From: Mermis nigrescens
Lineage: Eukaryota; Nematoda; Enoplea; Mermithida; Mermithidae
Assembly (NCBI GenBank): GCA_036768485.1
Contig: JAVLUZ010000273.1
Location: 872,963 to 936,962, forward strand
Direction of reading: 5' to 3'
Length of the DNA stretch: 64,000 bases
This document shows, in pieces, positions 22,920-39,174 of the stretch. The number at the start of each line of letters is the position of its first letter. Position 1 is the first letter of the stretch. A program made the translations under genes and the position numbers. The notes beneath the pieces were generated by a model. It saw only the letters and a list, made by a program, of their open reading frames with translations. It had not been told where the DNA came from and did no database searches.

Positions 22920-23859
22920 ATGGGCGGTAAAAATCGCGGATCGAAAATTTACGTGACCAATCAACACTCTAAATCACCACCGCAACGAACGGGAAATTTT
23001 TCTCTCCTTTATACAGAAGATGACAATAATAGTCTTTGTGTCATTTGCGCGGAGACAGTTACGGATAATCATATTTCGGCTGTTCAATGTGGACTATGTC
23101 ATAAGTGGGCACATGCTGAGTGCCTTAATCTACCATCAGCACTTATTTCATACTTTAATAGTTCGTCCTATATCGATGCTTTGTACTCTTTTCCATTCGT
23201 TTGCTCCTTGTGTGAACCCCTATTCGAAAATTTCGCTTCTTTACCTGCTAAGATGGCTACTTTAAAATCTCGTCTAAACTCAATTGAATCAAAAATCAGC
23301 GCTTCTACGGCACCCAGCATCGTCGATATAGGTTTATTAATTCAAGATGGTATAGAACGTGAATCGAAAAAGTCGAATGCAGTTGTATTTGGTTTAGCCG
23401 AATCTAATGATGACCTTGTTTTGGTTAAATCTTTAATTGACGATTACAATAAAGACTCTGATTTTTCATCAGCCGATATAACGCAGGTATTTAGAGACAG
23501 TCCCACCCAAATATTCCGACAAACCTCAGTTTCTGAAAGTTTGTCTTTCTTCTTCACGTGCTCAGCGTTGTTTTATTGGCCTTATCAACAAAGTTGTGCG
23601 CCCTGCAAATCCAACAAACGCCTACTCGAAATTACGTGCACGATCGGATTTGTCGTTTCTTCAACAAAAACGTCAGCATGAACTTAACGACGAGTTGCAC
23701 CAACGACTGGACGCGGGCGAGACTAATCTATATATCGACTTCAGGGATGACTGTGTGAAGAAGAAAACAGTACGAGTCTATGATCCTCGTTCTACGGCCC
23801 CAAAACCATCTAATCCCCAATTTCGTGCTCAACATGGTCAACACGCGTCTAATATTTAG
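22920..23859 (+). CDS. LINE ORF1 with PHD finger (one frame break)
   Basis: The first 253-residue frame (22920-23681) has a PHD-type zinc finger around residues 39-100, with ligands in the order LCVIC, CGLC, H-x-x-C, and VCSLC. A coiled-coil-like segment follows (AKMATLKSRLNSIESK). Similarity to a protein-like frame resumes in another frame from about 23505 to 23859 (DLSFLQQKRQHELNDEL, ending HASNI before TAG), so a single indel near 23490-23510 is likely. ORF1 proteins of CR1-type LINEs bind RNA and package the transcript; PHD fingers are known in some of them. The role of the finger here is inferred. Confidence 0.75.
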
Positions 23860-24477
23860 GTAAACTCGCCCCGTTATTTTGTAAATATCAAATGTTTGCT
23901 ATGTAATTCTCGTAGTATTGTTAATAAGTTAGGGGAACTTCATTTTCTTTTAAATACTGCAAAATTCGATATATTATTTTTTTGTGAAACCTGGCTAAAT
24001 GAATCTATTTCCGACAGTCTATTATGTCCGTTAAAAAATTATCTTATTCTCCGATCAGATCGCAAGAATAAGCGGGGAGGTGGAGTCTTAATTTTTACTA
24101 AACCCTATCTTTATGCTCGATGCATTAAAGTTCCTGCTTCTCTGTTTGTGTCTGATACTTTAGTAGTTGAAATTTTAAAAGGTGGAGATGTTATTAGATG
24201 TTTGTTAGTTTATAGACCTCCTCAGTATGATTTTGATACTGCACTTCGGATATGTAATTTAATTGAATGGGTTACTAATAGTTGTCATCCCGTTATTATA
24301 TTAGGTGATTTAAATTTGCCTAAAATTGATTGGTTTCATGGTACTTTTACATTTAATCCATTAAACGAATTATTTTTTGATTATTTATCAGCTAGTGGTC
24401 TGCAACAGTTAGTTAAAGAAAATACCCACGATAATACTTTGATTGATGTAGTATTTGCTGCATATAACGTTTTTTAA
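23860..24477 (+). CDS. LINE ORF2, endonuclease part
   Basis: The frame is open immediately after the ORF1 TAG and contains no ATG. It encodes an AP-like endonuclease: CNSRSIVNKLGEL near the start, FCETWLNE (catalytic Glu), a GGGV block, and GDLNLPKIDW. The usual final SDH motif lies in the next frame (24480s), so one base is gained or lost in the T6 run at 24470-24475. This enzyme nicks the target DNA to prime reverse transcription. Confidence 0.8.
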   Translation, partial: VNSPRYFVNIKCLLCNSRSIVNKLGELHFLLNTAKFDILFFCETWLNESISDSLLCPLKNYLILRSDRKNKRGGGVLIFTKPYLYARCIKVPASLFVSDTLVVEILKGGDVIRCLLVYRPPQYDFDTALRICNLIEWVTNSCHPVIILGDLNLPKIDWFHGTFTFNPLNELFFDYLSASGLQQLVKENTHDNTLIDVVFAAYNVF

Positions 24478-26197
24478 TGTCCAGGTTCTTCCTCCTTTTC
24501 CAACAAGCGACCATAATTCCATTTCTTTTGAAATTCTAAATAGGACTTCTCATGATGGAGATAAACCTTGCTTAAATTTCAATAAAGCGGACTATGACAG
24601 TATAGCTACTTTTTTATCCTCTGTTTCTTGGCCTGACATTTTTTCTACATGCTCAACAATTAATGACATGTATAATGTTTTTTTAAGTATATTAAATCCT
24701 CTTATTTTCAGTTTTGTTCCTACTTTTAGGACTAAATCAAAATTTAAATACCCTAAAAGCTTACATAAATTATTCCTTAAAAAACGTTCTCTGTGGGATA
24801 AGTATAAAAGGTGTAAAACTCCAGAAACTAAAACTAAATATCGAAATCATTGTAAAGCTTTACGTAGAATTATTCATAGTTATTTCTCTTCTCAAGAAAA
24901 CGAATTGCTTAAGAATAATAATCCTAAAGCTTTCTATACTTTTGTAAATAATAGGTTAAAAAGTCGCAGTGAAATTCCTCCCCTAACATTTTCTGATGAT
25001 AATGTTATAACCGATTCAATACGCAAGGCTAACACTTTTAATGATTATTTTGCTTCTGTGTTTTCTAGCGACATTACTAACGCGAATTTTCTTTTTCAGA
25101 ATCGCTGTGATTTTTCGCTTTCTGACGTCATTTTTAGTGAGAATTGCATATTGGAAGCCATTAACCATCTGAATAATTCTACTGCAGTTGGCCCAGATGG
25201 AATCTGTAATCTTTTTATTAAAAAATTGTCGTTTCAAATGGTAAAGCCGTTAGTTTCTATTTTCACTGTATCTTTTCTGTCTGGAAATATTCCCGAGCTT
25301 TGGAGCATGGCACATGTTATTCCCATTTTGAAAAAGGGGGACCCAGCATTAGTTGAAAATTACAGGCCCATCTCTCTTTGTTGTTCTATTGCAAAAATAA
25401 TGGAGAGAATTATTAATATTCAATTGTTAAACTTTCTTAAGGTTAATAAACTAATATCTCCTTTTCAATTTGGTTTTCAAAAGAATAAATCTTGTGAAAC
25501 ACAGTTGTTAAAATGTAAGTTTTCATGGATTCAGTCCTTAGCTAAAAAAGAAACTGTTGATATAATATACTTAGATTTTTCAAAAGCATTTGATAAAGTA
25601 AATAGTGAAAAACTTCTCATTAAGTTAAACGGATATGGAATAAAGGGCAATTTGTTTACATGGTTAAAGGCCTATTTGTTCAATCGTTCTCAGTGTGTTC
25701 GCATTAATCAGTCTTTTTCAGGTTACGTGCCTGTTACTAGCGGTGTCGTCCAAGGAAGTGTCCTTGGACCTACGCTCTTTTCGATTTTTATCAATGACAT
25801 ATGTGATAATATTTATAGCACGGTTTATATGTTTGCTGATGATATCAAAATTTTCAATATTAGTCGTAACTATAGATTATTACAGTCTGATTTAGATAAG
25901 ATTTTTGAGTGGGCAATTACATGGGATTTACCTATTTCACGAACCAAAAGTCAAGTTCTATATTTGGGTAATAATAATCAAAAAGTTATTTATAGACTAA
26001 ATGGGGAAATTATTTCTAGTGATTTGTTTGTCCGTGATTTAGGAGTTTTGATTTCCCGAAATTTAAAATTTAAGGAACATTATAATTCTTTGATTAAAAA
26101 AGCTTTCTCTAGATGTATTTTAATACGCAAATCATTTTTTCGCGTGATAAATGTAACCTTGTTAAAGCTTATAGTTGTTATGTTAGACCTTTATTAG
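24455..26197 (+). CDS. LINE ORF2, reverse transcriptase part
   Basis: The 580-codon frame starts with the endonuclease SDHNS motif and then the RT domain. Visible RT motifs are AVGPDGI, IPILKKGD and ENYRPISL, FQFGFQ, YLDFSKAFDKV, GVVQGSVLGP and the catalytic FADD (about residues 459-462). The order and spacing are those of CR1/jockey-like LINEs. The frame stops early at 26195-26197 because of a break at the T6 run 26135-26140. The remaining thumb and C-terminal part continues in the next frame. Confidence 0.9.
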   Translation: MLHITFFNVQVLPPFPTSDHNSISFEILNRTSHDGDKPCLNFNKADYDSIATFLSSVSWPDIFSTCSTINDMYNVFLSILNPLIFSFVPTFRTKSKFKYPKSLHKLFLKKRSLWDKYKRCKTPETKTKYRNHCKALRRIIHSYFSSQENELLKNNNPKAFYTFVNNRLKSRSEIPPLTFSDDNVITDSIRKANTFNDYFASVFSSDITNANFLFQNRCDFSLSDVIFSENCILEAINHLNNSTAVGPDGICNLFIKKLSFQMVKPLVSIFTVSFLSGNIPELWSMAHVIPILKKGDPALVENYRPISLCCSIAKIMERIINIQLLNFLKVNKLISPFQFGFQKNKSCETQLLKCKFSWIQSLAKKETVDIIYLDFSKAFDKVNSEKLLIKLNGYGIKGNLFTWLKAYLFNRSQCVRINQSFSGYVPVTSGVVQGSVLGPTLFSIFINDICDNIYSTVYMFADDIKIFNISRNYRLLQSDLDKIFEWAITWDLPISRTKSQVLYLGNNNQKVIYRLNGEIISSDLFVRDLGVLISRNLKFKEHYNSLIKKAFSRCILIRKSFFRVINVTLLKLIVVMLDLY

Positions 26198-26643
26198 AGT
26201 ACTGTTGTAGTGTATGGAACCCTTCTTATATTAGTGATATAGATCGACTGGAAGCTGTTCAACGTAGATTTACTAAATATATTTTCGGTTATAATAATAT
26301 TCTTTCTTACGAGGATCGTTTAATACAACTTAAATTGTGCAGACTTGAATTAAGACGCTTGCAAATTTGTCTGTGTATGATGTATCAGATTATTTGTCAC
26401 AAATCATGTTTGGAAGCTGATGATTTTTTTGTATTTAATCATAATATTACCCGCAGCATTAATAGATTTAAATTAGTTATACCTGTTGTACATTCTAATT
26501 TAGAAAAGTTTGATTTCTTTTACAAATACATCGCAGTTTGGAACGATCTACCTGACTTCATTGTTTCTTCCCCTAACCTAAACATATTCAAATCTAGATT
26601 AGCAAACTTTGATTTATCTAGATATCTTGTGGGGCGCGCGTAA
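26113..26643 (+). CDS. LINE ORF2, C-terminal part in shifted frame
   Basis: It contains YVRPLLEYCCSVWNPSY, RLEAVQRRFTKYIF, YEDRLIQLKLCRLELRR and VWNDLPDFIV, the usual C-terminal motifs of CR1/jockey ORF2 proteins. It is the continuation of the reverse transcriptase frame after the break at 26135-26140. Stop at 26641-26643, then about 110 bp of 3' UTR and the TTC tail. Confidence 0.85.
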   Translation: MYFNTQIIFSRDKCNLVKAYSCYVRPLLEYCCSVWNPSYISDIDRLEAVQRRFTKYIFGYNNILSYEDRLIQLKLCRLELRRLQICLCMMYQIICHKSCLEADDFFVFNHNITRSINRFKLVIPVVHSNLEKFDFFYKYIAVWNDLPDFIVSSPNLNIFKSRLANFDLSRYLVGRA

Positions 26644-28930: not shown

Positions 28931-29444
28931 TGTTACGGTCGCGCCTCTTGTTACGGTCGTGGTTTAGGTGTGGGGGGCTGAGTTGCGGTCGGGGACTTCA
29001 GCTAGTTCGGAGGTCTTAAGGTTAAGACTTATGTGGTAAGTACCAAGAGTATTCCAACACACGTTTTATTAATCACAAAAACACGAATAGAAGACTAACT
29101 CAAAACCGACTCAAAAACCAACCGAACCAAAGACCAAAGACGAACCTAGGACCGAACCAATAAATGAACAAAACGCGCGACTTAAATACTTGATGGGCTA
29201 CGTGCCATCAGGCAACAAACGAAAGAGCTAAATTAGGCAAGAAACGAAATTCACTCAGATCGCTTTCGTCGATCCCTCACGTATTTCGCTTTTTGCCTCG
29301 CTTCTTCGACGGCTGCCTCGAGTCACATATTTCGTCCTCCGCCATCAAATGCATGTTAGCCCCTAACTGCGCAATTCATTAATGTTCGACGCTTGTGCAG
29401 CTATCGGCGTCATCACTGTCGTCAGTCCCTTGGCCGTCCTGACA
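28931..29444 (-). repeat. 3' LTR of the gag-env-pol retroelement
   Basis: 514 bp, TG...CA ends. It matches 38662-39174 with about ten differences by eye (one 1-base indel). The element is flanked by a 4-bp TSD CATA (28927-28930 and 39175-39178). On the minus strand a TATTTAA box lies at 29182-29188 and AATAAA at 29065-29070, giving a plausible U3-R-U5 layout. The pol frame ends inside this LTR. Confidence 0.95.
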
Positions 29445-31379
29445 TTCCTCTTCTTCAAATTGGACGCCCTCGTCCAAATCTTCGTCCGATGGGATTGGCG
29501 AATCCACCTCATCTGCTCTTGGCTCCCATCCACTTAAAGAACCAAAGGAGCCCGGCACAAAACCTCGCAAACGTAGATCTGGCTCCTTCCATGCACTCTG
29601 GTGACCAAATGAGCCTGGTGGGCCGAATGCCGAGTTTGTACCACCTGGCACTATGACTGGGCCCTTCTTTTTGCTATTACGAGGTGGACTGTCATCTTTT
29701 TCAGTTTCGGCATACTCGGTACTATCATGGGGCGGTTCGTCGCATTCCTCTTCTTCATTTGGGGCGTCCTCGTCCCAATTCTGAAGTTTCCAATGTGGGT
29801 ACAGGAGGACCCCTGGCACCAAATTGTAATCATGCGTCTGTTTGGGTGGCTCTTCCACTTTTCCATGGTATGGTATTGTGCGGTTAATATGGATCTTTTC
29901 TGTCACATACGGTCTAGCGACTGACTGTATGGTGACGTTTGGTAGATTGATACTTGTGATCCTATACGGGCCATCATAGACCGGCATCAGCTTCTTTGTA
30001 AGACCTTGTTTGATGGTGTGTTTGTCCTTCAGGACTAGGTCAAAGAGCTTATAGTCGTGGGTGAACAGTTTTTTGTCATACTGGTTTATGTATCTCGTTT
30101 GAGCCAGTTTAATACGTTCAGGAATTGTATGGAGAGCTTGGGCGAAATGTTGCTGCATACGTTGCTCATAGCTATCCAGATCGTATTCTAGAACAGCGTT
30201 GGGTGTGTGCAAGATTGCATCAATTGGTAGTGTCGGTAGACGTCCATACACGAGTTGAAAGGGGCTATGCCCTGTCGACTCATTCACATGTATGTTGGTA
30301 GCGAATACTGCATAGGGGAGATGTTCATCCCAATCTCGCTGGCGATCATCTACAAACATTCGAATTCGGGTGATCAGTGTCTGATTTGCCCGTTCTACTT
30401 CACCATTAGCCATTGGGTGATAGGCTGTTGTATGTGCTTGGGTAACGCCTAAAATTTTGGTCACCTCCTTCATGAGATTTGAGGTGAAGTCTGACCCTTG
30501 GTCTGACTGTAAAATGTGTGGTGTTCCATGACGACAGATAATGTTGTTGACAAACAATCGCGCAATTGTCCTTGATGTGATGTTGCATGTGGGAAACGCT
30601 TCCACATATTTTGTAAAGTAGTCTATGAAGACTACAATAAAGCGGTGTCCACATGGTGTCATGGGTAGGGGTCCCATGCAATCTACGGCAATTCTGTAGA
30701 AGGGCGCAACTATCTGAATTGGTTGGAGATTTGCCACAACTTTACGTCGAGTGGGCTTGTTCTTTTGACAGGCATCACAGGTTTTACAATAGGTTGTAAT
30801 GTCCTGGGCCATGCCTTTCCAATAATATTTTCGGGCAACCAATTCTGTGGTTTTTCTTGCTCCGAAGTGTCCTCCAAACCAAGTATTATGCATTGATTCG
30901 ATGATAAAAGTCCTAAGGGATTGCGGCACCACAATTTTGTAATCAGTGTTGCCAGTTTGGGCAAAGTGGTTTTTATTGATATACAATATTTTCCCTATGT
31001 AGGTATATTCTTGTGGTAGTTTATTTTCAGTCATATGACGCTTGATAATTTTTTGTAACTCTGGGTCATTTCTAGTGGCTATTTGAAGGTAGCCAAGTGG
31101 AGTTTTATCGACTGGATTTTCACCAATGGCACACATAGTGGGCCAGGCCTCGTCACTTTCAATATCAAACTGAGGCACATTATCAGCTGTGTTGGGTCTA
31201 GGTAGACGTGATAAAGCATCTGCATTTGCATTTTGTGTACCTTTCCTTGGCACAATGGTCAGTTTACAATCGGCAACAGCTAAACCCCATCTAGCAATAC
31301 GTGCTGAAGGATTTGGCTTTTCAAGAACTGCTTTTACAGCTGTATGGTCCGTATGTACTATGACTTCTTGGTCATACAA
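29379..31379 (-). CDS. pol: Pol, RNase H end and integrase
   Basis: 666 codons, in a different frame from the upstream pol part. It starts inside RNase H (VHTDHTAVKAVL, NANADALSRLP). Next come the integrase HHCC zinc domain (residues about 164-204, H-x-H and CKTCDAC), the D-D-E catalytic core (AVDCMG, SDQGSDF, NGEVERANQTL) and a GPY/F-type module (PVYDGPYRI). No chromodomain is seen. The C-terminal about 130 residues are acidic, with a duplicated segment (EEEEC occurs twice, DNA copies 300 bp apart), and run across the PPT about 66 bp into the LTR. This Met is not the true start; the frame was entered through the break at 31444-31449. Confidence 0.9.
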   Translation of the reverse strand: MYDQEVIVHTDHTAVKAVLEKPNPSARIARWGLAVADCKLTIVPRKGTQNANADALSRLPRPNTADNVPQFDIESDEAWPTMCAIGENPVDKTPLGYLQIATRNDPELQKIIKRHMTENKLPQEYTYIGKILYINKNHFAQTGNTDYKIVVPQSLRTFIIESMHNTWFGGHFGARKTTELVARKYYWKGMAQDITTYCKTCDACQKNKPTRRKVVANLQPIQIVAPFYRIAVDCMGPLPMTPCGHRFIVVFIDYFTKYVEAFPTCNITSRTIARLFVNNIICRHGTPHILQSDQGSDFTSNLMKEVTKILGVTQAHTTAYHPMANGEVERANQTLITRIRMFVDDRQRDWDEHLPYAVFATNIHVNESTGHSPFQLVYGRLPTLPIDAILHTPNAVLEYDLDSYEQRMQQHFAQALHTIPERIKLAQTRYINQYDKKLFTHDYKLFDLVLKDKHTIKQGLTKKLMPVYDGPYRITSINLPNVTIQSVARPYVTEKIHINRTIPYHGKVEEPPKQTHDYNLVPGVLLYPHWKLQNWDEDAPNEEEECDEPPHDSTEYAETEKDDSPPRNSKKKGPVIVPGGTNSAFGPPGSFGHQSAWKEPDLRLRGFVPGSFGSLSGWEPRADEVDSPIPSDEDLDEGVQFEEEECQDGQGTDDSDDADSCTSVEH
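29445..29456 (-). promoter_or_regulatory. Polypurine tract (plus-strand primer)
   Basis: GAAGAAGAGGAA on the minus strand directly abuts the 3' LTR, where the polypurine tract of an LTR element belongs. The identical 12-mer occurs again exactly 300 bp away (29745-29756) inside pol. Confidence 0.85.
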
Positions 31380-31414
31380 GTACGGTCGAAAGTACTTGAT
31401 ATATTCAACTACAG

Positions 31415-33931
31415 CTAGAGTTTCCAGCTCAGTGATTGGATAATTTTTTCAGCTGATCGGAGTGAGCGACTAGCATAACAAATCGGGTGCTCAACTTGAT
31501 TTCCATCAAGCTGGCTCAATACTGCACCTATGCCATTGATTGAGGCATCAGTTTGCAGGATGAATGGTTGGTCGAAGTCTGGGTGTTTTAAAATTGGTGG
31601 TTGAATGAGCTGTGTTTTTAGCATCTGAAATGCTTGTTCACAGTCTGCTGTCCACTCAAATTTTGTGTGCTTCTTCAGCAATGCTGTTAAAGGGTTTGCG
31701 ATTTTTGCGCAATTTTTAATAAAGCGTCGATAGTAGGAAATGAGGCCTAAGAATGCTTTAACCTCTTTTGTATTAGTTGGTTGTGGCATTTGCTGTATAG
31801 CTGCAAATTTGGAATCATCTGGAAGTATTCCTTTGTGGGAGATATTATATCCCAAATATTTGATTTCTGTTTGGCTGAATTTACATTTTTCTAAGCGTAG
31901 CTTAAGTCCAGCATTATCCAAACGGTATAGTATTTCTTCCAGATTTTTAAGCATTTCACGGTGCGTTTTGCCAAAAACGAGTATATCGTCAAGGTATACG
32001 AGACAGTTGTTCCATTTAAGCCCTGTTAGCACGATGTCCATAAGACGTTGAAATGTGCTTGGTGCATTTGAAAGACCAAATGGCATGTATTTGAATTCGA
32101 ATAAGCCTACGGGGCTGTTAAATGCTGTCTTCTCCTGATCGTCAGGAGCGATCGGGATTGACCAATAGGCATTTGCCTGGTCAAGGGTCGTGAAATACTG
32201 CATATTGTTTAGTGTGTCAAGGATGCAGTCGATTCGTGGGAGTGGATAAACATCTCGTTTTGTGACTTGGTTCAAAGCCCGAAAGTCAATACAGAGACGT
32301 AAGCCTCCGTCTTTTTTCTTCACTAATACTGCATTTGTTGCCCAAGGCGAAAAACTTGGTTGGATAATCCCCTGCGCTTCAAGTTTTTGCACTTCTTGGG
32401 TGATTATCTGTTTTTCGGCTGGTGAAGTACGGTATGGTGGTCGATGAATGGGTATCTGCCCATCAGTAATGATGGAATGTTGTATGACCCGTGTACGTCC
32501 GGAGTCTGCGCTGTGTTCAGCGTACAAGTGTGAGAATTGATATAATAATTGAAGGAGTTCGTTCCGATCCTCTTGTGGGAGTTCGGGTGGGATCAGGGCA
32601 GTTTTCTTTACCCATTCATTAGCATATCTCCAACTATTGCGCATTTTAGATCCATGGCGGAGCTGTGAGGTTACATCATTGGGTGTACCGTCAGTAAGTG
32701 TATACACCGTCGCTGCCATGGGTTCATCAATGTGATTGCATATGGTACCGATGCGCATGCCTTTATATAATTTAATGCCGAATTTCTGGGGGTTCAGGAG
32801 TTGCACCGTTATGCATCCATCTTTTACCAAAGAAAGACACGCTGCAAAATAGATATGATGTAGCTCGGCCAATTTTGGGCAGGGTTCGAATTGGACATTG
32901 GTTGAATTACAGTATTTGGGAGATATAGGTATTGTAAATACTGTAGCTGTTCGCGGGCCAAACTCAATTGTTGAGTCCATGAAGATTGCTCCTCGTTGTG
33001 CTGGAGAAATGTATTGTATTCCTGAGCACGGTATGATTTCATTTTTGAGGCGAATATATCTGCACTCATTATTTATTTCGTAAGCTTTGAAACGAAATAG
33101 GAAATTAGTGCCCAAAATGAAAGTTTTCACATTTGTGGTGGGGTATATATGAACCAAAATAGTCTCATTGACATCACCTACGTGTATGTCAAGATAACAT
33201 TGGCCAATTAACTCAATAGCTTGGCCATTGGCCGCTATTGGCGTAGTGTACGTTGGCTCGATTTTTAGTTCGCTGATTTGGTCAGCTATGCATGATGATA
33301 TTAAGGAGTAAGTAGCTCCAGTATCAATCATAGCTGTTGCCCATATTTGATTCTGTATAAGGACATCAATATATGGTGACCTTTTGGTCTGGGGATTTTG
33401 TGTAATTGTCATTACAGTAGTTTGTTGCTCTTGTGTAAGAGGAGTTCGCTGTGCTTGATTTTCCTGTTTTGTCATACCTACTAAATTCAGTAAGGCTGTT
33501 CCCAGAGAATGGGATTGTATACTGGGTGTACGTGCACGCATAATATGTGATCTGCGCGGCGGTCGTCTGGGTTGAATGAGTGGTGATGGTGTTTGTGGGC
33601 GATAAGTTCGCCTAGTTCGCCGATGGTTTAAATAGCACATTAAAATGAAATATGCTAGATAACCAGAACCAGCGATCAGCGCTACAATTATAATTGCATT
33701 AAGTAGTAGCTGTACTGGACCCTGCAAAATATTTGTCAGGCCAGAATTTATATTATTACCTGTGTGTGAGGTAATTCGCTCGAGAACATTTTCTGCTCCT
33801 TCGAGTGTGCTCTTAATGGCTGCTCCTGCGCCAGTTAAGCTATCATGCACAAGATTTGGTTGTAAAGATATGTCTGCTGTGTAGCGGACTAAATTAGCTA
33901 AAGTTTGCTCTATTTGCTGCGTTTTTGCCAC
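31415..33931 (-). CDS. pol: Envelope transmembrane tail fused to protease and reverse transcriptase
   Basis: The open frame starts before the GTG at 33931 and has no stop until 31415. Residues about 1-75 look like the end of a glycoprotein ectodomain. Residues about 75-105 are a membrane span (IIIVALIAGSGYLAYFILM), then a basic cytoplasmic tail (RRTRRTYR). After this come an aspartic protease (AMIDTGATYSLIS, about residue 200) and a Ty3/gypsy reverse transcriptase: FSPWATNAVLVKKKDGG, FRALNQ, TLDQANAYWSI, PFGLSNAPSTFQ and catalytic YLDD (VYLDDILVFG). It ends in the first part of RNase H (LQTDASINGIGAVL). The break into the next frame is at the six-base run 31444-31449. Env tail, protease and RT share one frame, which is unusual. 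Confidence 0.85.
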   Translation of the reverse strand: MAKTQQIEQTLANLVRYTADISLQPNLVHDSLTGAGAAIKSTLEGAENVLERITSHTGNNINSGLTNILQGPVQLLLNAIIIVALIAGSGYLAYFILMCYLNHRRTRRTYRPQTPSPLIQPRRPPRRSHIMRARTPSIQSHSLGTALLNLVGMTKQENQAQRTPLTQEQQTTVMTITQNPQTKRSPYIDVLIQNQIWATAMIDTGATYSLISSCIADQISELKIEPTYTTPIAANGQAIELIGQCYLDIHVGDVNETILVHIYPTTNVKTFILGTNFLFRFKAYEINNECRYIRLKNEIIPCSGIQYISPAQRGAIFMDSTIEFGPRTATVFTIPISPKYCNSTNVQFEPCPKLAELHHIYFAACLSLVKDGCITVQLLNPQKFGIKLYKGMRIGTICNHIDEPMAATVYTLTDGTPNDVTSQLRHGSKMRNSWRYANEWVKKTALIPPELPQEDRNELLQLLYQFSHLYAEHSADSGRTRVIQHSIITDGQIPIHRPPYRTSPAEKQIITQEVQKLEAQGIIQPSFSPWATNAVLVKKKDGGLRLCIDFRALNQVTKRDVYPLPRIDCILDTLNNMQYFTTLDQANAYWSIPIAPDDQEKTAFNSPVGLFEFKYMPFGLSNAPSTFQRLMDIVLTGLKWNNCLVYLDDILVFGKTHREMLKNLEEILYRLDNAGLKLRLEKCKFSQTEIKYLGYNISHKGILPDDSKFAAIQQMPQPTNTKEVKAFLGLISYYRRFIKNCAKIANPLTALLKKHTKFEWTADCEQAFQMLKTQLIQPPILKHPDFDQPFILQTDASINGIGAVLSQLDGNQVEHPICYASRSLRSAEKIIQSLSWKL

Positions 33932-33939
33932 ATAATGAG

Positions 33940-35973
33940 CTAACGCTGCTGGGGCATATGGCTGGTCTGATAGTCTATCGTGGTAAATCTGGGGGTTGTA
34001 AAGTCCACGAAACTATCATTTCCACTCCATAGCATGCTAACATGAAATTGGTTTACATGGGTTGGTCCCGAAAGGCTGAACCATTTACCTTGATCTTTAT
34101 AGATTGGTAATGTACGATGGTTGCAGTCTACTTTTGGTGAAAAAGTTGTGAGCTCTTGGGAACCAGGAAGTACATAATAAATCTGGTCGTTTACAATGAC
34201 CGGTAAATTTTTGTAACAAGTATTATTGACCTTTAGGTCCCAATAGATTTTATGCGGTTTGACTTTGTTACATTTCCAAACTGTTAGTGCTTCCCCTGTA
34301 AACTCAGCGGTTATATCAGTACGTTGGAGCAATGCTCTGGCGCCCATCGTGGCGTCAAAGCTTAAAAGTTGCCAGACAATGTCTAGTGTGTTTTGAGACA
34401 TATGGCACATTTTTAGCCATAATTTTTTGAATTTATGCTGTTCGAGTTCGAGCAATTTGGATTCTAAATAGTCCAATTTTGCATCGACAGGATCAGCGTT
34501 AATTATTATGGCTGCATCCTTAGAAGGTGCAGTGATTGGTGATGTAAAGTTAAAAGGGTTCGGTTTACCCGGAGCTAGTTGTATAACTAAGCCTTGCCTT
34601 GTTAGCCATCCTCGCTTTATGTGTTTACACAGTTTAAAGCTGGTTCGCAAGGTTAAAGAGGCTTGTAAGTCCTCAATTACTACGTAAGGGTGGGAATATT
34701 TGGCTTTATAGGTACCTTTCAAAATAACGGGGCAGTCCATGTCCCTCTGGTTCGTTTCCCAATTAATGGTTTGGTTATTTCGGGTGCACGTCCCCATATC
34801 GTACGTACAGTTTCCTACATCTCCGAGGTCAGAAGTTAATACTTTACCATCAAATGTGGCTACTGTACCCTCTTCGAGAATAGTGTTAGCTACTGTAGTA
34901 CATGAGTCGTGACAACAGTACGTATAATCCACTTTTAAAGTGTTGTTTGTGGACCAAAAACCATTAGGGAGTTTGAAAAGTTTACGCTCATTGTGCGTTT
35001 TTGAGTGAAAAATACCTTCGCAAACTTTATGATGTAAAGGTTCAATTTGCATGGTATCTCGCACTATACCTTTTGAGCCAAAAAATCCCATATTCGTGCA
35101 CACAGTTCGTGTTCGGGTATAGCATTTATATGCTAATTCCATGGTGGGAGTACTTTTTGGAGTGTAGACTGTTGCATCAAAAGTTTGAGCCGATTTTTGG
35201 CTTTTAACAACAAATTTACAGTCTAGGGATCTGGGGATATCCAGAGCTGTCCCACTACTGCTTTTGCCACACATTAAATATTCTGTGTCTCTTTTATTAT
35301 AAAATAAATCGTCATTTTTATTGGCAGCAATGCAAGATAAACCAAATACGCAAGAGAAAATTAATATGATGTAACTTGGTATCTGCTTGCTGCCTCGGCG
35401 AGTTCGCCTATTCATTTCTCCGCCGCTTTTGCTTGCGGGCCTGCTGTGTGTACCCTTAAATGCGCAGGTTATAGCAAGAATCAATACGCTAGTAAAAGAT
35501 AGAAAAACTAGCTTACTAATGCCCTGAATCTCTCCATTCGCATTATCAATCTGCTGTTGCAGACCGGTTTTCTCTGTAGGGCCCAAAGCGTGGAGCAACT
35601 TTTGCTTCCAGTGTAATATATCCAGGCCGATGTTGAGAACTTGGCTTTCCTTGCTGAGCCGAGTTTCTTGCTCGTACTCTGCGTCACAATGCTGGCGATA
35701 ACGTTTTCGCTGCTGGCGTTGCGCCTCGCGTTGCTGCCTGCATGCAATGCTTTCGCTCGAATCAGTGGAGCTGGCGAGTTTGAAACGGGACTCACCGGCA
35801 TCCAAAACATGGGCAGGCGATTCTGACATCTCTCGGGTCGTCATCTGCCCTTCTGATTCGAGCTCAGCTGATCGCAATGCGGCAGCAAGATCATCTTCTG
35901 GCTCCAGGTCGAAAAAACCGGGATTCTGGGAATCCGGCATGGAGCCTCTGCTGGTGCCGCGCCTGGTTGGCAT
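33940..35973 (-). CDS. env: Envelope-like glycoprotein located between gag and pol
   Basis: 677 codons overlapping the end of gag by 83 bases in another frame. Residues 1-150 are charged (Gln/Arg-rich helix near 75-110). Residues about 152-174 are hydrophobic (SKLVFLSFTSVLILAITCAF). Met187 (35415) then begins a classic signal peptide: a basic stretch, then YIILIFSCVFGLSCIAA. The remaining ectodomain is Cys-rich with at least six N-glycosylation sequons. Patterns such as CTYDMGTC...CPVILKG and NTCYKNLPVIVNDQIYYV recall glycoproteins of chuvirus/mononegavirus type that invertebrate retroelements have captured; that is recognition by eye, not a search. The frame stops after SHMPQQR, while the membrane anchor continues in the pol frame; the likely break is the five-base run 33991-33995. 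Confidence 0.75.
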   Translation of the reverse strand: MPTRRGTSRGSMPDSQNPGFFDLEPEDDLAAALRSAELESEGQMTTREMSESPAHVLDAGESRFKLASSTDSSESIACRQQREAQRQQRKRYRQHCDAEYEQETRLSKESQVLNIGLDILHWKQKLLHALGPTEKTGLQQQIDNANGEIQGISKLVFLSFTSVLILAITCAFKGTHSRPASKSGGEMNRRTRRGSKQIPSYIILIFSCVFGLSCIAANKNDDLFYNKRDTEYLMCGKSSSGTALDIPRSLDCKFVVKSQKSAQTFDATVYTPKSTPTMELAYKCYTRTRTVCTNMGFFGSKGIVRDTMQIEPLHHKVCEGIFHSKTHNERKLFKLPNGFWSTNNTLKVDYTYCCHDSCTTVANTILEEGTVATFDGKVLTSDLGDVGNCTYDMGTCTRNNQTINWETNQRDMDCPVILKGTYKAKYSHPYVVIEDLQASLTLRTSFKLCKHIKRGWLTRQGLVIQLAPGKPNPFNFTSPITAPSKDAAIIINADPVDAKLDYLESKLLELEQHKFKKLWLKMCHMSQNTLDIVWQLLSFDATMGARALLQRTDITAEFTGEALTVWKCNKVKPHKIYWDLKVNNTCYKNLPVIVNDQIYYVLPGSQELTTFSPKVDCNHRTLPIYKDQGKWFSLSGPTHVNQFHVSMLWSGNDSFVDFTTPRFTTIDYQTSHMPQQR

Positions 35974-37795
35974 CTGGCTGCTCTGACGACTGTGTGAGCT
36001 CGGGCTGCGGCTCGCTGATGGCCTCCTGCGGTGGTGGGGGTTGAGCCGCCACCATCTGAGTCAGCACATCTGCTTGCAGCTCCATGGAGAGTTCTTCAAC
36101 GGGGGTTTCCCCCATTACCTCATCCATGAGCTGAGCAAATGTGATTGGCTCAGCATCCATTTCTGTCGTCAGGCTTTCCACGGCGGGCACTGGTGGGGTT
36201 GGTGCCATGGGCTTGCACTCGCACTTGCCGCACCAGCACTCTGTAATAGAAGAGGAAAATTCAGTTTTGGTGTTCAATTGACAAAGATTTTTCGGTGCTT
36301 TTGAATTAATTTTGTCAATTTCTATCGATTCAATCTTTTCGAGATCGATCTGAGTTGTTTCTGATCGAAATTTTTCGATATCTGATTTGAAATTTTCAGA
36401 ATCGTGTTGAATAGTTATTAATCGAAATTTTCCGATTTCAGATTCGATATTTTCCGAATCGTTTTGAATAGTTTTTAATCGATATTTTCCCATGTCAGAT
36501 TCAATATTTATGTATTTTCCACTTGTATTAATATGTATCGGAAAATTTTCCGGTGGGTCATTGCCCGAAAACATTTGTGGGACCATGTTGGTCATGATGC
36601 CGTAATTACAGTCATCATTATCGATATTTTCTAGGGGGTCGTGAGAAATCAAATTATTTGTTGGTTGATGGTAAAATGGGCGATTTTGTAATCGATTTTG
36701 CGACAACAATGGGCGTCTCCCCTGGGGGGTAGATTGCTGCCTCATTTGAGTGTCAGATGGTATTTGTGACTCACTTATAAAGCGCGGCTTAGGGCGCTGC
36801 TCCACCGGCGATATTCTGTTGCCGTTGTGGCGCCGAATTGGCCGACTGACATGCTGCGGCTGCTGGCCGTGAATATGCCAGCATGTAGCCGTCGTGTGGC
36901 TTCGATTAGTGCCACACCTCTCGCACCACTGGCGTCGTTCGGCGGTTGCCGGCCGAAAAGGCGGACGATTAGACGCCTGACGCCCATTTCCTCGCTCCTG
37001 GCGAGCCAAGCGCCGCGCCATCTCCCTCATTTGGGCTTCCATCAACTCCATGCGTTCCATTTTTTCTGAATTAGTGAATATATTTTCAGATACGACATGG
37101 TTTAAATTGTCACGTAATACTTGCGACTCTACAAAATGAGCACATTTAAGAACTTCGTTTAAGGAGTTATATTCTCTATATTTAATTTTGTCCCTTATGT
37201 GAGGGAGAAGACCCCTGAGAAAAATCGGTTTTAATATATTTTCTCTCGAATCTTCATCCAAAGTAGGATAAGCAACTCGTGCAAATTTTCTGAGTTCTTC
37301 AACATATTCGTTTACAGACTCTGAATTTTTCTGTTTTTTATCATAGATTAACTGCTGATATACGTCACTATCGCGTCCATCAGGAAAAACAGTTTTTAGA
37401 TGTTGTATATATTCTGCATATGTGGTGGGCTTGGGTCGCTTATTTTGAATTTGCTTAAAAGCTGCTTTTGCTGCTCCACCTAAATTCGTTTCGAGATAAT
37501 TTATGCGAAATTCATCATCTTGAGGGTTAATACCCTGTAAAAGCATAAATTTCGAAAATTCTTCTTCCCATTCTGTAAAATTATCGCCAAAATTTCCAGA
37601 ATATATGGATGGAGGGCGTAAATTAAACAGATGGGTGGGACCTCGAGGTGTCCGAGTCGGTGGGTTGGTGGGTGTGATCGTATTTTGCAACCCCTGCTCT
37701 ATCGTGTCTAGTTTATCATGTAGAGGTGAAAGAAGCGATTTTAATGCGTTCTTTACAGTGGAATCGATTACTGAAGCTGCAGTTTGCGATGTCAT
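35891..37795 (-). CDS. gag: Gag
   Basis: The frame is open from 37876 (GTG) but the first ATG is at 37795, chosen as start because a stop precedes the GTG. It has the Ty3/gypsy gag domain (FTEWEEEFSKFMLLQGI, YAEYIQHLKTVFPD, DVYQQLIYDKKQKNSESVNEYVEEL, FLRGLLPHIRDKI). A zinc knuckle follows with pattern CX2CX5HX4C (WCERCGTNRSHTTATC). A charged segment of three 19-residue tandem repeats (36335-36510) and a Pro/Gln-rich end come next. It ends at GARR stop inside env. A run of six identical bases (35912-35917) lies in the overlap. Confidence 0.9.
   Translation of the reverse strand: MTSQTAASVIDSTVKNALKSLLSPLHDKLDTIEQGLQNTITPTNPPTRTPRGPTHLFNLRPPSIYSGNFGDNFTEWEEEFSKFMLLQGINPQDDEFRINYLETNLGGAAKAAFKQIQNKRPKPTTYAEYIQHLKTVFPDGRDSDVYQQLIYDKKQKNSESVNEYVEELRKFARVAYPTLDEDSRENILKPIFLRGLLPHIRDKIKYREYNSLNEVLKCAHFVESQVLRDNLNHVVSENIFTNSEKMERMELMEAQMREMARRLARQERGNGRQASNRPPFRPATAERRQWCERCGTNRSHTTATCWHIHGQQPQHVSRPIRRHNGNRISPVEQRPKPRFISESQIPSDTQMRQQSTPQGRRPLLSQNRLQNRPFYHQPTNNLISHDPLENIDNDDCNYGIMTNMVPQMFSGNDPPENFPIHINTSGKYINIESDMGKYRLKTIQNDSENIESEIGKFRLITIQHDSENFKSDIEKFRSETTQIDLEKIESIEIDKINSKAPKNLCQLNTKTEFSSSITECWCGKCECKPMAPTPPVPAVESLTTEMDAEPITFAQLMDEVMGETPVEELSMELQADVLTQMVAAQPPPPQEAISEPQPELTQSSEQPDANQARHQQRLHAGFPESRFFRPGARR
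36335..36510 (-). repeat. 57-bp tandem repeat within gag
   Basis: Three units of 19 codons with pattern IES-x-x-GK-x-R-x-x-TIQ-x-DSEN. The DNA has TTCGATA / AATCGAAA blocks every 57 bp. It lies after the zinc knuckle. Function unknown; probably a flexible or coiled segment. Confidence 0.85.
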
Positions 37796-37876
37796 TTTAT
37801 CGATTACTGCTTGACGAGTGTTTTTCGCTGGGGTATCCGAATTATGATCAGGATCCAGAGTGATATTATGAAACAC

Positions 37877-38641
37877 TTAGTTTATTCGATTAAAATAATT
37901 CGATATTTACCGTATTTTATTCACGGATTTTACCAATAAAAGGTATTTGCTTAGTTTAGCAATGAAATTGAAATTAAATCAGCTCTTAATATGAATATTA
38001 ACCTTTGTTAATTTTTTTGGGGATAATTTTCCCTTTATATAATAAGCCTTTGCTTAATTTTAAGAATGAGGGGAGATTTTCCCTCGATAAGCCTTTGCTT
38101 AATTGGGAACCTTTGTTCCTTTTATTACTGAGTCTACGCTCTAGTAAAATTAGCAGACCTTTGTCTGAGAATTAATTGGGAACCTTTGTTCCTTCGATTA
38201 CTGAGTCTATGCTCTAGTAAAATTAGCAGACCTTTGTCTGTGAAATATTACCCTCTGTAGACCTTTGTCTGGGGGGTTTTGTGGCCTTTGCCTAAAATAT
38301 GGGTCGTCACCCAGAAAAAAAAATGAATTTTTTTTCGAAAATTAGTCGATTTTTTCGACTTTTCAGACCTTTGTCTGTTTTTCGTTTCCTTTGAAACGTT
38401 TTATGTCGATTTTTCGACTTTTTAGACCTTTGTCTAATTTGGTTTTTGGGTCTGTGCCCGAAAAGAGCTGAAAATTTCAAAATTGTCGATTTTTCGACGT
38501 TCCAGACCTTTGTCTGTTTTATCGTTTCCTTTGAAACGTTTTAGAGCGGATGTATGGGGAATTTCCCTCACACCCTGTCAGTAAATGAACACACAAATAA
38601 ACTAAGTCAAAACACTCGGTTTTCCTTACCTTGGCTTAACC
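37877..38641 (-). promoter_or_regulatory. 5' leader with an array of AAAG-loop hairpins
   Basis: Between the primer binding site and gag, at least fourteen short hairpins share the loop CTTT on the plus strand (AAAG in the RNA) while their stems differ and stay complementary. Loop positions: 38003, 38048, 38093, 38111, 38159, 38184-38187, 38232, 38263, 38286, 38369, 38389, 38428, 38508, 38529. Stems include ATTAAC/GTTAAT, TAAGC/GCTTA, GGAAC/GTTCC, CAGAC/GTCTG and CGTTTC/GAAACG. Further hairpins: GTCGA-T5-TCGAC, and GGGT-CGTC-ACCC at 38301-38312, whose RNA loop is GACG. A role in RNA packaging or dimerisation is inferred. Confidence 0.8.
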
Positions 38642-38659
38642 ACTGTCGATGTCTCGCCA
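38642..38659 (-). promoter_or_regulatory. Primer binding site
   Basis: Two bases after the 5' LTR the minus strand reads TGGCGAGACATCGACAGT, beginning with TGG, complementary to a tRNA 3' CCA end. I could not decide which tRNA. Confidence 0.7.
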
Positions 38660-38661
38660 CT

Positions 38662-39174
38662 TGTTACGGTCGCGCCTCTTGTTACGGTCGTGGTTTAGGT
38701 GTGGGGGCTGAGTTGCGGTCGGGGACTTCAGCTAGTTCGGAGGTCTTAAGGTTAAGACTTATGTGGTAAGTACCGAGAGTATTCCAACACACGTTTTATT
38801 AATCACAAAAACACGAATAGAAGACTAACTCAAAACCGACTCAAAAACCAATCGAACCAAAGACCAAAGACGAACCTAGGACCGAACCAATAAATGAACA
38901 AAACGCGCGACTTAAATACTTGATGGGCTACGTGCCATCAGGCAACAAACGAAAGAGCTAAATTAGGCAAGAAACGAAATTCACTCAGATCGCTTTCGTC
39001 GATCCCTCACGTATTTCGCTTTTTGCCTCGCTTCTTCGACGGCTGCCTCGAGTCACGTATTTCGTCTTCCGCCATCAAATGCATGTCAGCCCCTAACTGC
39101 GCAATTCATTAATGTTTGACGCTTGCGCAGCTATTGGCGTCATCACTGTCGTCAGTCCCTTGCCCGTCCTGACA
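38662..39174 (-). repeat. 5' LTR of the gag-env-pol retroelement
   Basis: 513 bp, partner of 28931-29444. The TATTTAA box is at 38912-38918 and AATAAA at 38795-38800 on the minus strand. TGTTACGGTCG is repeated twice near one end. Flanked by CATA at 39175-39178. Confidence 0.95.

Follow-up and report, generated by a model that had tools for sequence, protein, structure and literature searches.

A Monjiviricetes-type fusion glycoprotein between gag and pol in gypsy-like retroelements of the nematode Mermis nigrescens

In a 64,000-nucleotide stretch of the Mermis nigrescens genome (contig JAVLUZ010000273.1, positions 872,963 to 936,962; hereafter the window), we identified a complete long terminal repeat (LTR) element that carries an envelope-like glycoprotein gene (env) between gag and pol. 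The same order recurs in diverged copies on many contigs, in which env shares the reading frame of pol and, in several, also that of gag. The arrangement is a real, conserved and rare design that has been seen once in print. Judged from sequence, these elements probably represent a Ty3/gypsy-type lineage that acquired a Monjiviricetes-type fusion glycoprotein and produces it within a Gag-Env-Pol polyprotein, as an internal domain. An env gene is the mark that divides a retrovirus from a retrotransposon, and its usual described position is after pol.

The window element lies on the minus strand (39174-28931, 10,244 bp), is flanked by the target site duplication (TSD) TATG, and reads LTR, gag, glycoprotein, protease-reverse transcriptase (RT)-RNase H-integrase, LTR. 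The 5' LTR (38662..39174, 513 bp, TG...CA ends, TATG outside) and the 3' LTR (28931..29444, 514 bp) share 504 identical positions, with nine mismatches and one gap. The gag open reading frame (ORF; 35891..37876) contains a capsid domain (37519-37136) matching Pfam Ty3_capsid/Retrotrans_gag and, by eye, a zinc-knuckle-like CX2CX5HX4C motif. The glycoprotein frame runs from stop to stop at 33940..36060, with its first ATG at 35973, and encodes six N-glycosylation sequons and 21 Cys. Its core, residues 496-635 counted from that ATG, matched Pfam Monjiviricetes_fusion (PF24664; E 9.6e-20, 70.5 bits against a cut-off of 27), and BDV_G matched below the Pfam cut-off. In pol, ORF a (31415..34012) encodes the glycoprotein stalk and anchor, a tail, the aspartyl protease (33370-33098), the RT (RVT_1, 32323-31841) and the first part of RNase H, whereas ORF b (29379..31448) encodes the remaining RNase H and the integrase (Integrase_H2C2, 30929-30753; rve, 30692-30414). 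Thus, the LTRs, the TSD and the Pfam matches confirmed the gene order given in the preliminary description of this DNA, and the profile hidden Markov model (HMM) score bore out its suggestion of a chuvirus/mononegavirus-type ectodomain.

Three interruptions break the reading frame of the window copy. The preliminary description had ended the glycoprotein at 33940; this was wrong, as the predicted transmembrane anchor (33694-33638) lies beyond that stop and is encoded in the following frame, in the opening part of pol ORF a. A signal-sequence-like hydrophobic stretch (35326..35382) stands directly ahead of the ectodomain, and another hydrophobic stretch, KLVFLSFTSVLILAITCAF, lies further upstream (35458..35514). 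The near relatives C58_141 and C638, 96-99% identical to the window copy on both flanks of the glycoprotein/pol frame change, are in a single frame throughout this junction; a programmed -1 frameshift there was therefore rejected. The gag/glycoprotein frame change is likewise absent in C58_141, which instead carries stops within gag. Indel errors are common in nanopore reads. The M. nigrescens assembly combines nanopore long reads with 10X linked reads and contains 83.98% repeats (PMC10989877); a single-base frame break may thus reflect either decay or an error of sequencing.

For the genome search, 523,963,438 bases on 860 contigs were covered. The window glycoprotein matched at least 68 places at E <= 0.001, a lower bound, as 66 of 1912 first-look candidates were scored. 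The PF24664 profile resulted in 68 matches, all above its cut-off, and in none of 14 control genomes; a query from env to protease of C389 found at least 116 places among the matches listed. Ten copies with both upstream and downstream pieces were read in detail. In all ten, env lies ahead of pol and its C-terminal half is in the pol frame, and in eight this shared frame reaches through integrase, the exceptions being C58_141 (pol deletion) and C161_257 (break in integrase). Gag is in the env frame in C59_839, C305, C389_242 and C58_141 (whose gag contains stops), and partly in C638; in C255, where the frame changes inside env, gag shares the frame of the N-terminal portion. C161_257 gave no gag match. 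Three more copies chosen for their long frames (C656, C45 and C11) also have gag in the env frame.

Pfam was run on separate pieces of C389_242, C59_839 and C305, whose single frames measure 2822, 2540 and 2519 aa as a group. In all three, one open frame encodes, in order, capsid-type, PF24664, protease-type, RT, RNase H and integrase domains, with several capsid and protease matches below cut-off and a weak capsid match in C389_242 (PNMA, E 0.0016). PF24664 scored above cut-off in all 12 of the scanned env-pol pieces or database proteins that contain the env core. The copies with the same order and intact frames sought in the preliminary description were thus found, diverged and with frames of up to 2822 aa, and their order implies an unusual expression strategy, as it had reasoned from the position of env. 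The glycoprotein as a separate ORF holds for the window copy and fails in the relatives, where it shares the pol frame and in several the gag frame too.

We also compared env with RT positions, taking env places from the three genome searches and excluding repeated places and one fragment. When the 150 best RT hits were checked, 99 had env, among the matches listed, on their own strand and no more than 6 kb upstream, and 51 had it neither upstream nor downstream; the env lists are lower bounds, so these 51 are no evidence of absence. Three hits have env downstream, two in a tandem array on C161 and one beside a second env fragment on C192, and all three have an upstream env too. The C161 array (near 2.55-2.57 Mb) consists of at least three env-pol units at a spacing of about 8.4 kb. 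Eight loci, seven of them from the 51, were picked non-randomly by RT for spread, and short stretches upstream of RT were read. Env was found upstream of RT in seven (C55, C602, C101, C268, C87, C48 and C47), some of them frame-broken. The eighth (L063; C61:13450591-13452391, minus strand) gave no env match; what precedes RT there is gag, with several zinc knuckles. The RT hit falls within an open frame of 1943 aa, and C61 has another RT hit of equal frame length and identity. The search for copies lacking env or carrying it after pol was therefore largely favourable to the order seen in the window, with L063 and the three downstream cases as described.

Env is under purifying selection between subfamilies, with ratios of nonsynonymous to synonymous substitution (dN/dS) of 0.07-0.11 (L024; L025, L026, L028 and L029; L030), the five L024 comparisons lying near dS saturation; pairs under 60% identity were excluded. 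The ratio was 0.28-0.36 between the window group (L001-L003) and a group 84-87% identical to it (L007, L008 and L010), and 0.22-0.69 among the closest copies, where changes are few. The env genes of L025, L026, L028 and L029 are identical or one synonymous change apart and the LTR pairs of seven other subfamily copies are 98.3-99.8% identical, so the family was recently active. The HMM E-value, the copy number and dN/dS together exclude a chance match. Trees built among our own hits, with the RT row of C58_141 disregarded (a spurious match due to the pol deletion), have their main clades in common for env and RT, and pairwise env and RT distances correlate at 0.81 without the database protein P0004 and 0.65 with it; P0004 is placed differently in the two trees, with weak support. 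These patterns fit a single ancient capture, after which env and RT were mostly inherited together, with recombination.

Independent sources add further cases. Seven database proteins join Env to pol: P0001 (1130 aa, partial, Env-anchor-protease-RT), P0004 (1925 aa, a signal-like start followed by Env, a protease-like region, RT, RNase H and integrase) and P0007-P0011 (2294-2847 aa). In each of the six proteins P0004 and P0007-P0011, PF24664 stands ahead of RT, RNase H and integrase, the rve match being below cut-off in P0004, P0007 and P0010. A gag part is recognizable in P0007-P0010 by zinc knuckles, identified by motif or Pfam within residues 291 to 364, and none was found in P0011. Relative to the window, identity is 40-54% in RT and 30-35% in env. 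P0002 and P0003 are Env proteins without pol, and P0002, whose record is named as a gammaproteobacterial metagenome-assembled genome, is presumably contamination. In P0010, an RNA recognition motif (RRM_1) lies beside the zinc knuckle. No relatives were confirmed in IMG/VR and GTDB contigs, and a PDB sequence search with the glycoprotein gave no match up to E 10.

The frame breaks around env in the window copy could be taken for a nested insertion or assembly artefact that placed a foreign env by chance inside a gag-pol element. This explanation is refuted by the gene order that diverged copies share across many contigs, single frames of up to 2822 aa, purifying selection on env, the broad agreement between the env and RT trees, and the Env-pol fusions from independent sources; we give it practically no credence.

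How the glycoprotein would be made is suggested by its hydrophobic layout. A signal-like stretch ahead of the ectodomain was found in 11 of 14 copies with a pattern-anchored start, and two of the other three (C58_141 and C59_839) have one in a separate hydrophobicity scan. Downstream of the ectodomain, each of the ten copies and the window element have a strong anchor, and the distance from signal to anchor is 565-579 residues in P0004, P0007, P0009 and P0011. In the polyprotein model, the simplest reading of this layout, Gag would be made in the cytosol; an internal signal sequence would then send the next 570 residues or so, the glycosylated, Cys-rich ectodomain, into the lumen of the endoplasmic reticulum, until a single stop-transfer anchor halts transfer and translation goes on in the cytosol with protease, RT, RNase H and integrase. 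On the lumenal side, Gag would be cut from Env by signal peptidase; on the cytosolic side, Pol would be released by the protease that the element encodes. The anchor would thereby put the enzymes and, via Gag, the genome at the membrane holding the fusion protein, as for an enveloped particle. This topology, like the cleavages, particle formation and fusion activity, is a prediction. In flaviviruses and alphaviruses, one translation product likewise holds a cytosolic capsid, an internal signal, a lumenal glycoprotein and a stop transfer; these viruses are unrelated, and the resemblance is one of layout.

Several observations weigh against the polyprotein reading, beginning with the layout itself. 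The 11 of 14 count has no shuffled control. At the 19-residue threshold no upstream stretch was found in C305 (a weaker one is seen by eye), P0008 or P0010. An additional upstream stretch like that at 35458..35514 of the window occurs in C58_141, C510_685 and C389_242; it was rejected as a general feature, being missing from some subfamilies. Two further hydrophobic stretches follow pol in C255, and one more follows the anchor in P0011. Elsewhere in the data, the integrase tree groups C638 with C305, unlike the env and RT trees. Gag is out of the env frame in C510_496, C142_158 and C510_685, with an identical offset, and the P0004 ORF has no gag; in some subfamilies, a frame change from gag to env-pol or an env-pol mRNA may therefore be the rule. 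The extra hydrophobic stretch, these offsets and the splice-like motifs described below keep frameshifting and splicing alive as explanations.

A programmed frameshift or readthrough between Gag and Env-Pol, giving mostly Gag and a minority of Gag-Env-Pol, agrees with the overlap of the gag and env-pol frames at the same offset in the 3 of 10 copies. However, no X XXY YYZ slippery heptamer was found in the three overlaps, gag and env form one frame in six others (C59_839, C305, C389_242, C656, C45 and C11), some of them in the clades of the three, and the host assembly is nanopore-based (PMC10989877), with the indel errors noted above. We regard such recoding as improbable.

Splicing deserves somewhat more weight, though we still consider it unlikely. 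Here, Env would come from a spliced subgenomic RNA, as in retroviruses: the full RNA would give Gag(-Env)-Pol and the spliced one Env(-Pol), with the shared frame a matter of genome packing. The leaders of the window copy (38632), C58_141 and C638 contain a donor-like AAG/GTAAGG, and that of C305 contains a donor-like CGGTAAGT; before env, ten acceptor-like motifs were counted in eight copies, against about 3.4 expected from base shuffles. P0004 starts at its own signal-like sequence, and in some copies a Met stands shortly ahead of the signal. However, the same patterns gave no donor in the other 7 of 10 copies (C161_257 without a proper LTR assignment), acceptor positions differ between copies, and no conserved splice sites were found in the copies compared. 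Neither donors before env (2, with about 4.6 expected) nor acceptors in the stretch from anchor to protease (2, with about 2.7 expected) are in excess, so removal of env by splicing is unsupported. Nor was a conserved Env start codon found before the signal; C142_158 has no Met in the 91 residues ahead of the signal core, and C510_685 and C11 have none within 45 residues of the ectodomain.

The env-less locus L063 bears on function. It implies that env is dispensable for multiplication inside a genome, a further point against the polyprotein reading, and that intracellular spread needs none, as would be expected if the glycoprotein were kept for some purpose besides entry, such as blocking receptors or docking the capsid to membranes inside the cell. 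The conserved ectodomain core, Cys pattern and anchor are instead those expected of a fusion glycoprotein, and we give a non-entry role a slim chance.

For classification, the order protease-RT-RNase H-integrase with a Ty3-type capsid was found in the window and, with several matches below cut-off, in three copies. Ty3/gypsy elements are expected to have LTRs with TG...CA ends, a TSD of 4-6 bp, a primer-binding site (PBS) beside the 5' LTR and a purine tract before the 3' LTR. In the window, the LTR ends and the TSD TATG agree with this, and the likely PBS (38642..38659, minus strand), assigned as is usual for LTR elements, starts with TGGCGAGAC. The same nine bases also directly follow the 5' LTR in C510_496, C59_839, C142_158, C305 and C255, and C389_242 has TGGCGAGCG at this place. 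The purine tract AAAGAAGGAGGA precedes the 3' LTR in C305, C510_685 and C255, and no TSD was seen in C255. The Ty3-type capsid and generic Pfam matches to RT, RNase H and integrase, on which the probable assignment is based, point to gypsy. Errantiviruses are likewise Ty3/gypsy elements (Metaviridae) with env and LTRs, but their env lies downstream of pol, whereas the window env is upstream of pol and the pol ORF stops inside the 3' LTR. In addition, the errantivirus env likely derives from a baculovirus (PMC12440569).

The system is not undescribed, as the preliminary description had proposed, because the giant gypsy-like Burro elements of planarians are a precedent (PMC6431247). In 2019, Burro was called the first case of an in-frame env between gag and pol; its env lies between gag and protease and gave hits to mononegavirus fusion glycoproteins. 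Burro and the elements described here have in common a polyprotein with Env between gag and protease, Gag zinc knuckles and a gypsy-type pol; the in-frame env occurs in the relatives, the window copy being frame-broken. In contrast, Burro exceeds 30 kb, with an ORF1 of 4873-5140 aa, whereas the window element measures about 10 kb and single frames reach 2.5-2.8 kaa. Burro also encodes MATH, BIR, ankyrin, BCL2-like and dUTPase domains, none of which Pfam found in the pieces scanned here; its dUTPase lies between protease and RT, whereas that of P0007 stands ahead of env, after the gag part.

Other known elements are more distant. The mosquito element Anakin has captured a chuvirus-type glycoprotein, but it belongs to BEL/Pao, and other BEL/Pao elements carry env-like genes downstream of the polyprotein (PMC7642597). 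In the LTR retrotransposon TelKA of bdelloid rotifers, env likewise derives from a negative-strand RNA virus; however, it is of paramyxovirus F type and is ORF3, downstream of pol (PMC5408684). Lokiretroviruses have an Env similar to Mononegavirales fusion glycoproteins, but belong to a dual RNase H group (PMC9040795). Pfam found one RNase H region in the window and the copies scanned, with no search aimed at a degenerate tether. Troyka was rejected as a match, since it is described with CG...CG ends and without env. For Jingchuvirales glycoproteins, a survey reports that nothing clearly pointed to their capture by Gypsy elements (PMC10084718). In nematodes, the RNA of Cer1 runs from gag into pol without a stop (PMC10309623); one continuous ORF is thus ordinary in itself, and a membrane protein inside it is not. 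Judged by titles and the starts of abstracts in open-licence literature, we found no paper on such elements in nematodes among those listed, which does not prove that none exists.

New here are the compact size of the elements, the many nematode subfamilies, selection on env, its mostly joint descent with RT, the independent sources, one relative without the glycoprotein, and a concrete topology model. A diverse, recently active and selected lineage, together with the independent sources, suggests that the Burro design is not confined to giant elements of planarians. It poses a testable question, namely how one translation product could give both a cytosolic capsid with enzymes and a lumenal fusion protein. 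More tentatively, and with slightly less than even confidence, we propose a widespread, mostly unnoticed class of reverse-transcribing viruses in which Gag-Env-Pol is one membrane-threaded polyprotein, with the fusion protein mid-chain and capsid and enzymes tethered to it one-to-one. If true, its expression plan would be unlike that of retroviruses and nearer to the flavivirus structural-protein layout.

Further observations concern single copies and the assembly. C638 (L033/L034) is 97-99% like the window copy in the C-terminal 200 residues of env and in pol, and 58% in the N-terminal 200; it is likely a recombinant. In C656 (L051), about 300 codons between gag and env are open, yet resemble non-coding sequence rich in Ile, Lys and Asn. 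C117 and C191 carry the same element at the identical offset 9464, probably a leftover haplotig duplication that raises copy counts. L054, near 36.16 Mb of the 48.8-Mb contig C61, holds a COX1 copy that is stop-free in the invertebrate mitochondrial code and is either a nuclear mitochondrial insertion or a scaffolding error. In the window, the element leader contains a 73-bp tandem repeat (38099-38244) with recurring CAGACAAAGGTCTG-like near-palindromes, and a 57-bp repeat of 2.6 copies inside gag (36364-36509) encodes a Glu/Ile-rich repeat. Outside the element, positions 22920-26643 of the plus strand hold a remnant of the long interspersed nuclear element type, with an endonuclease (PF14529), RVT_1 and a PHD-like finger (below cut-off) in separate frames.

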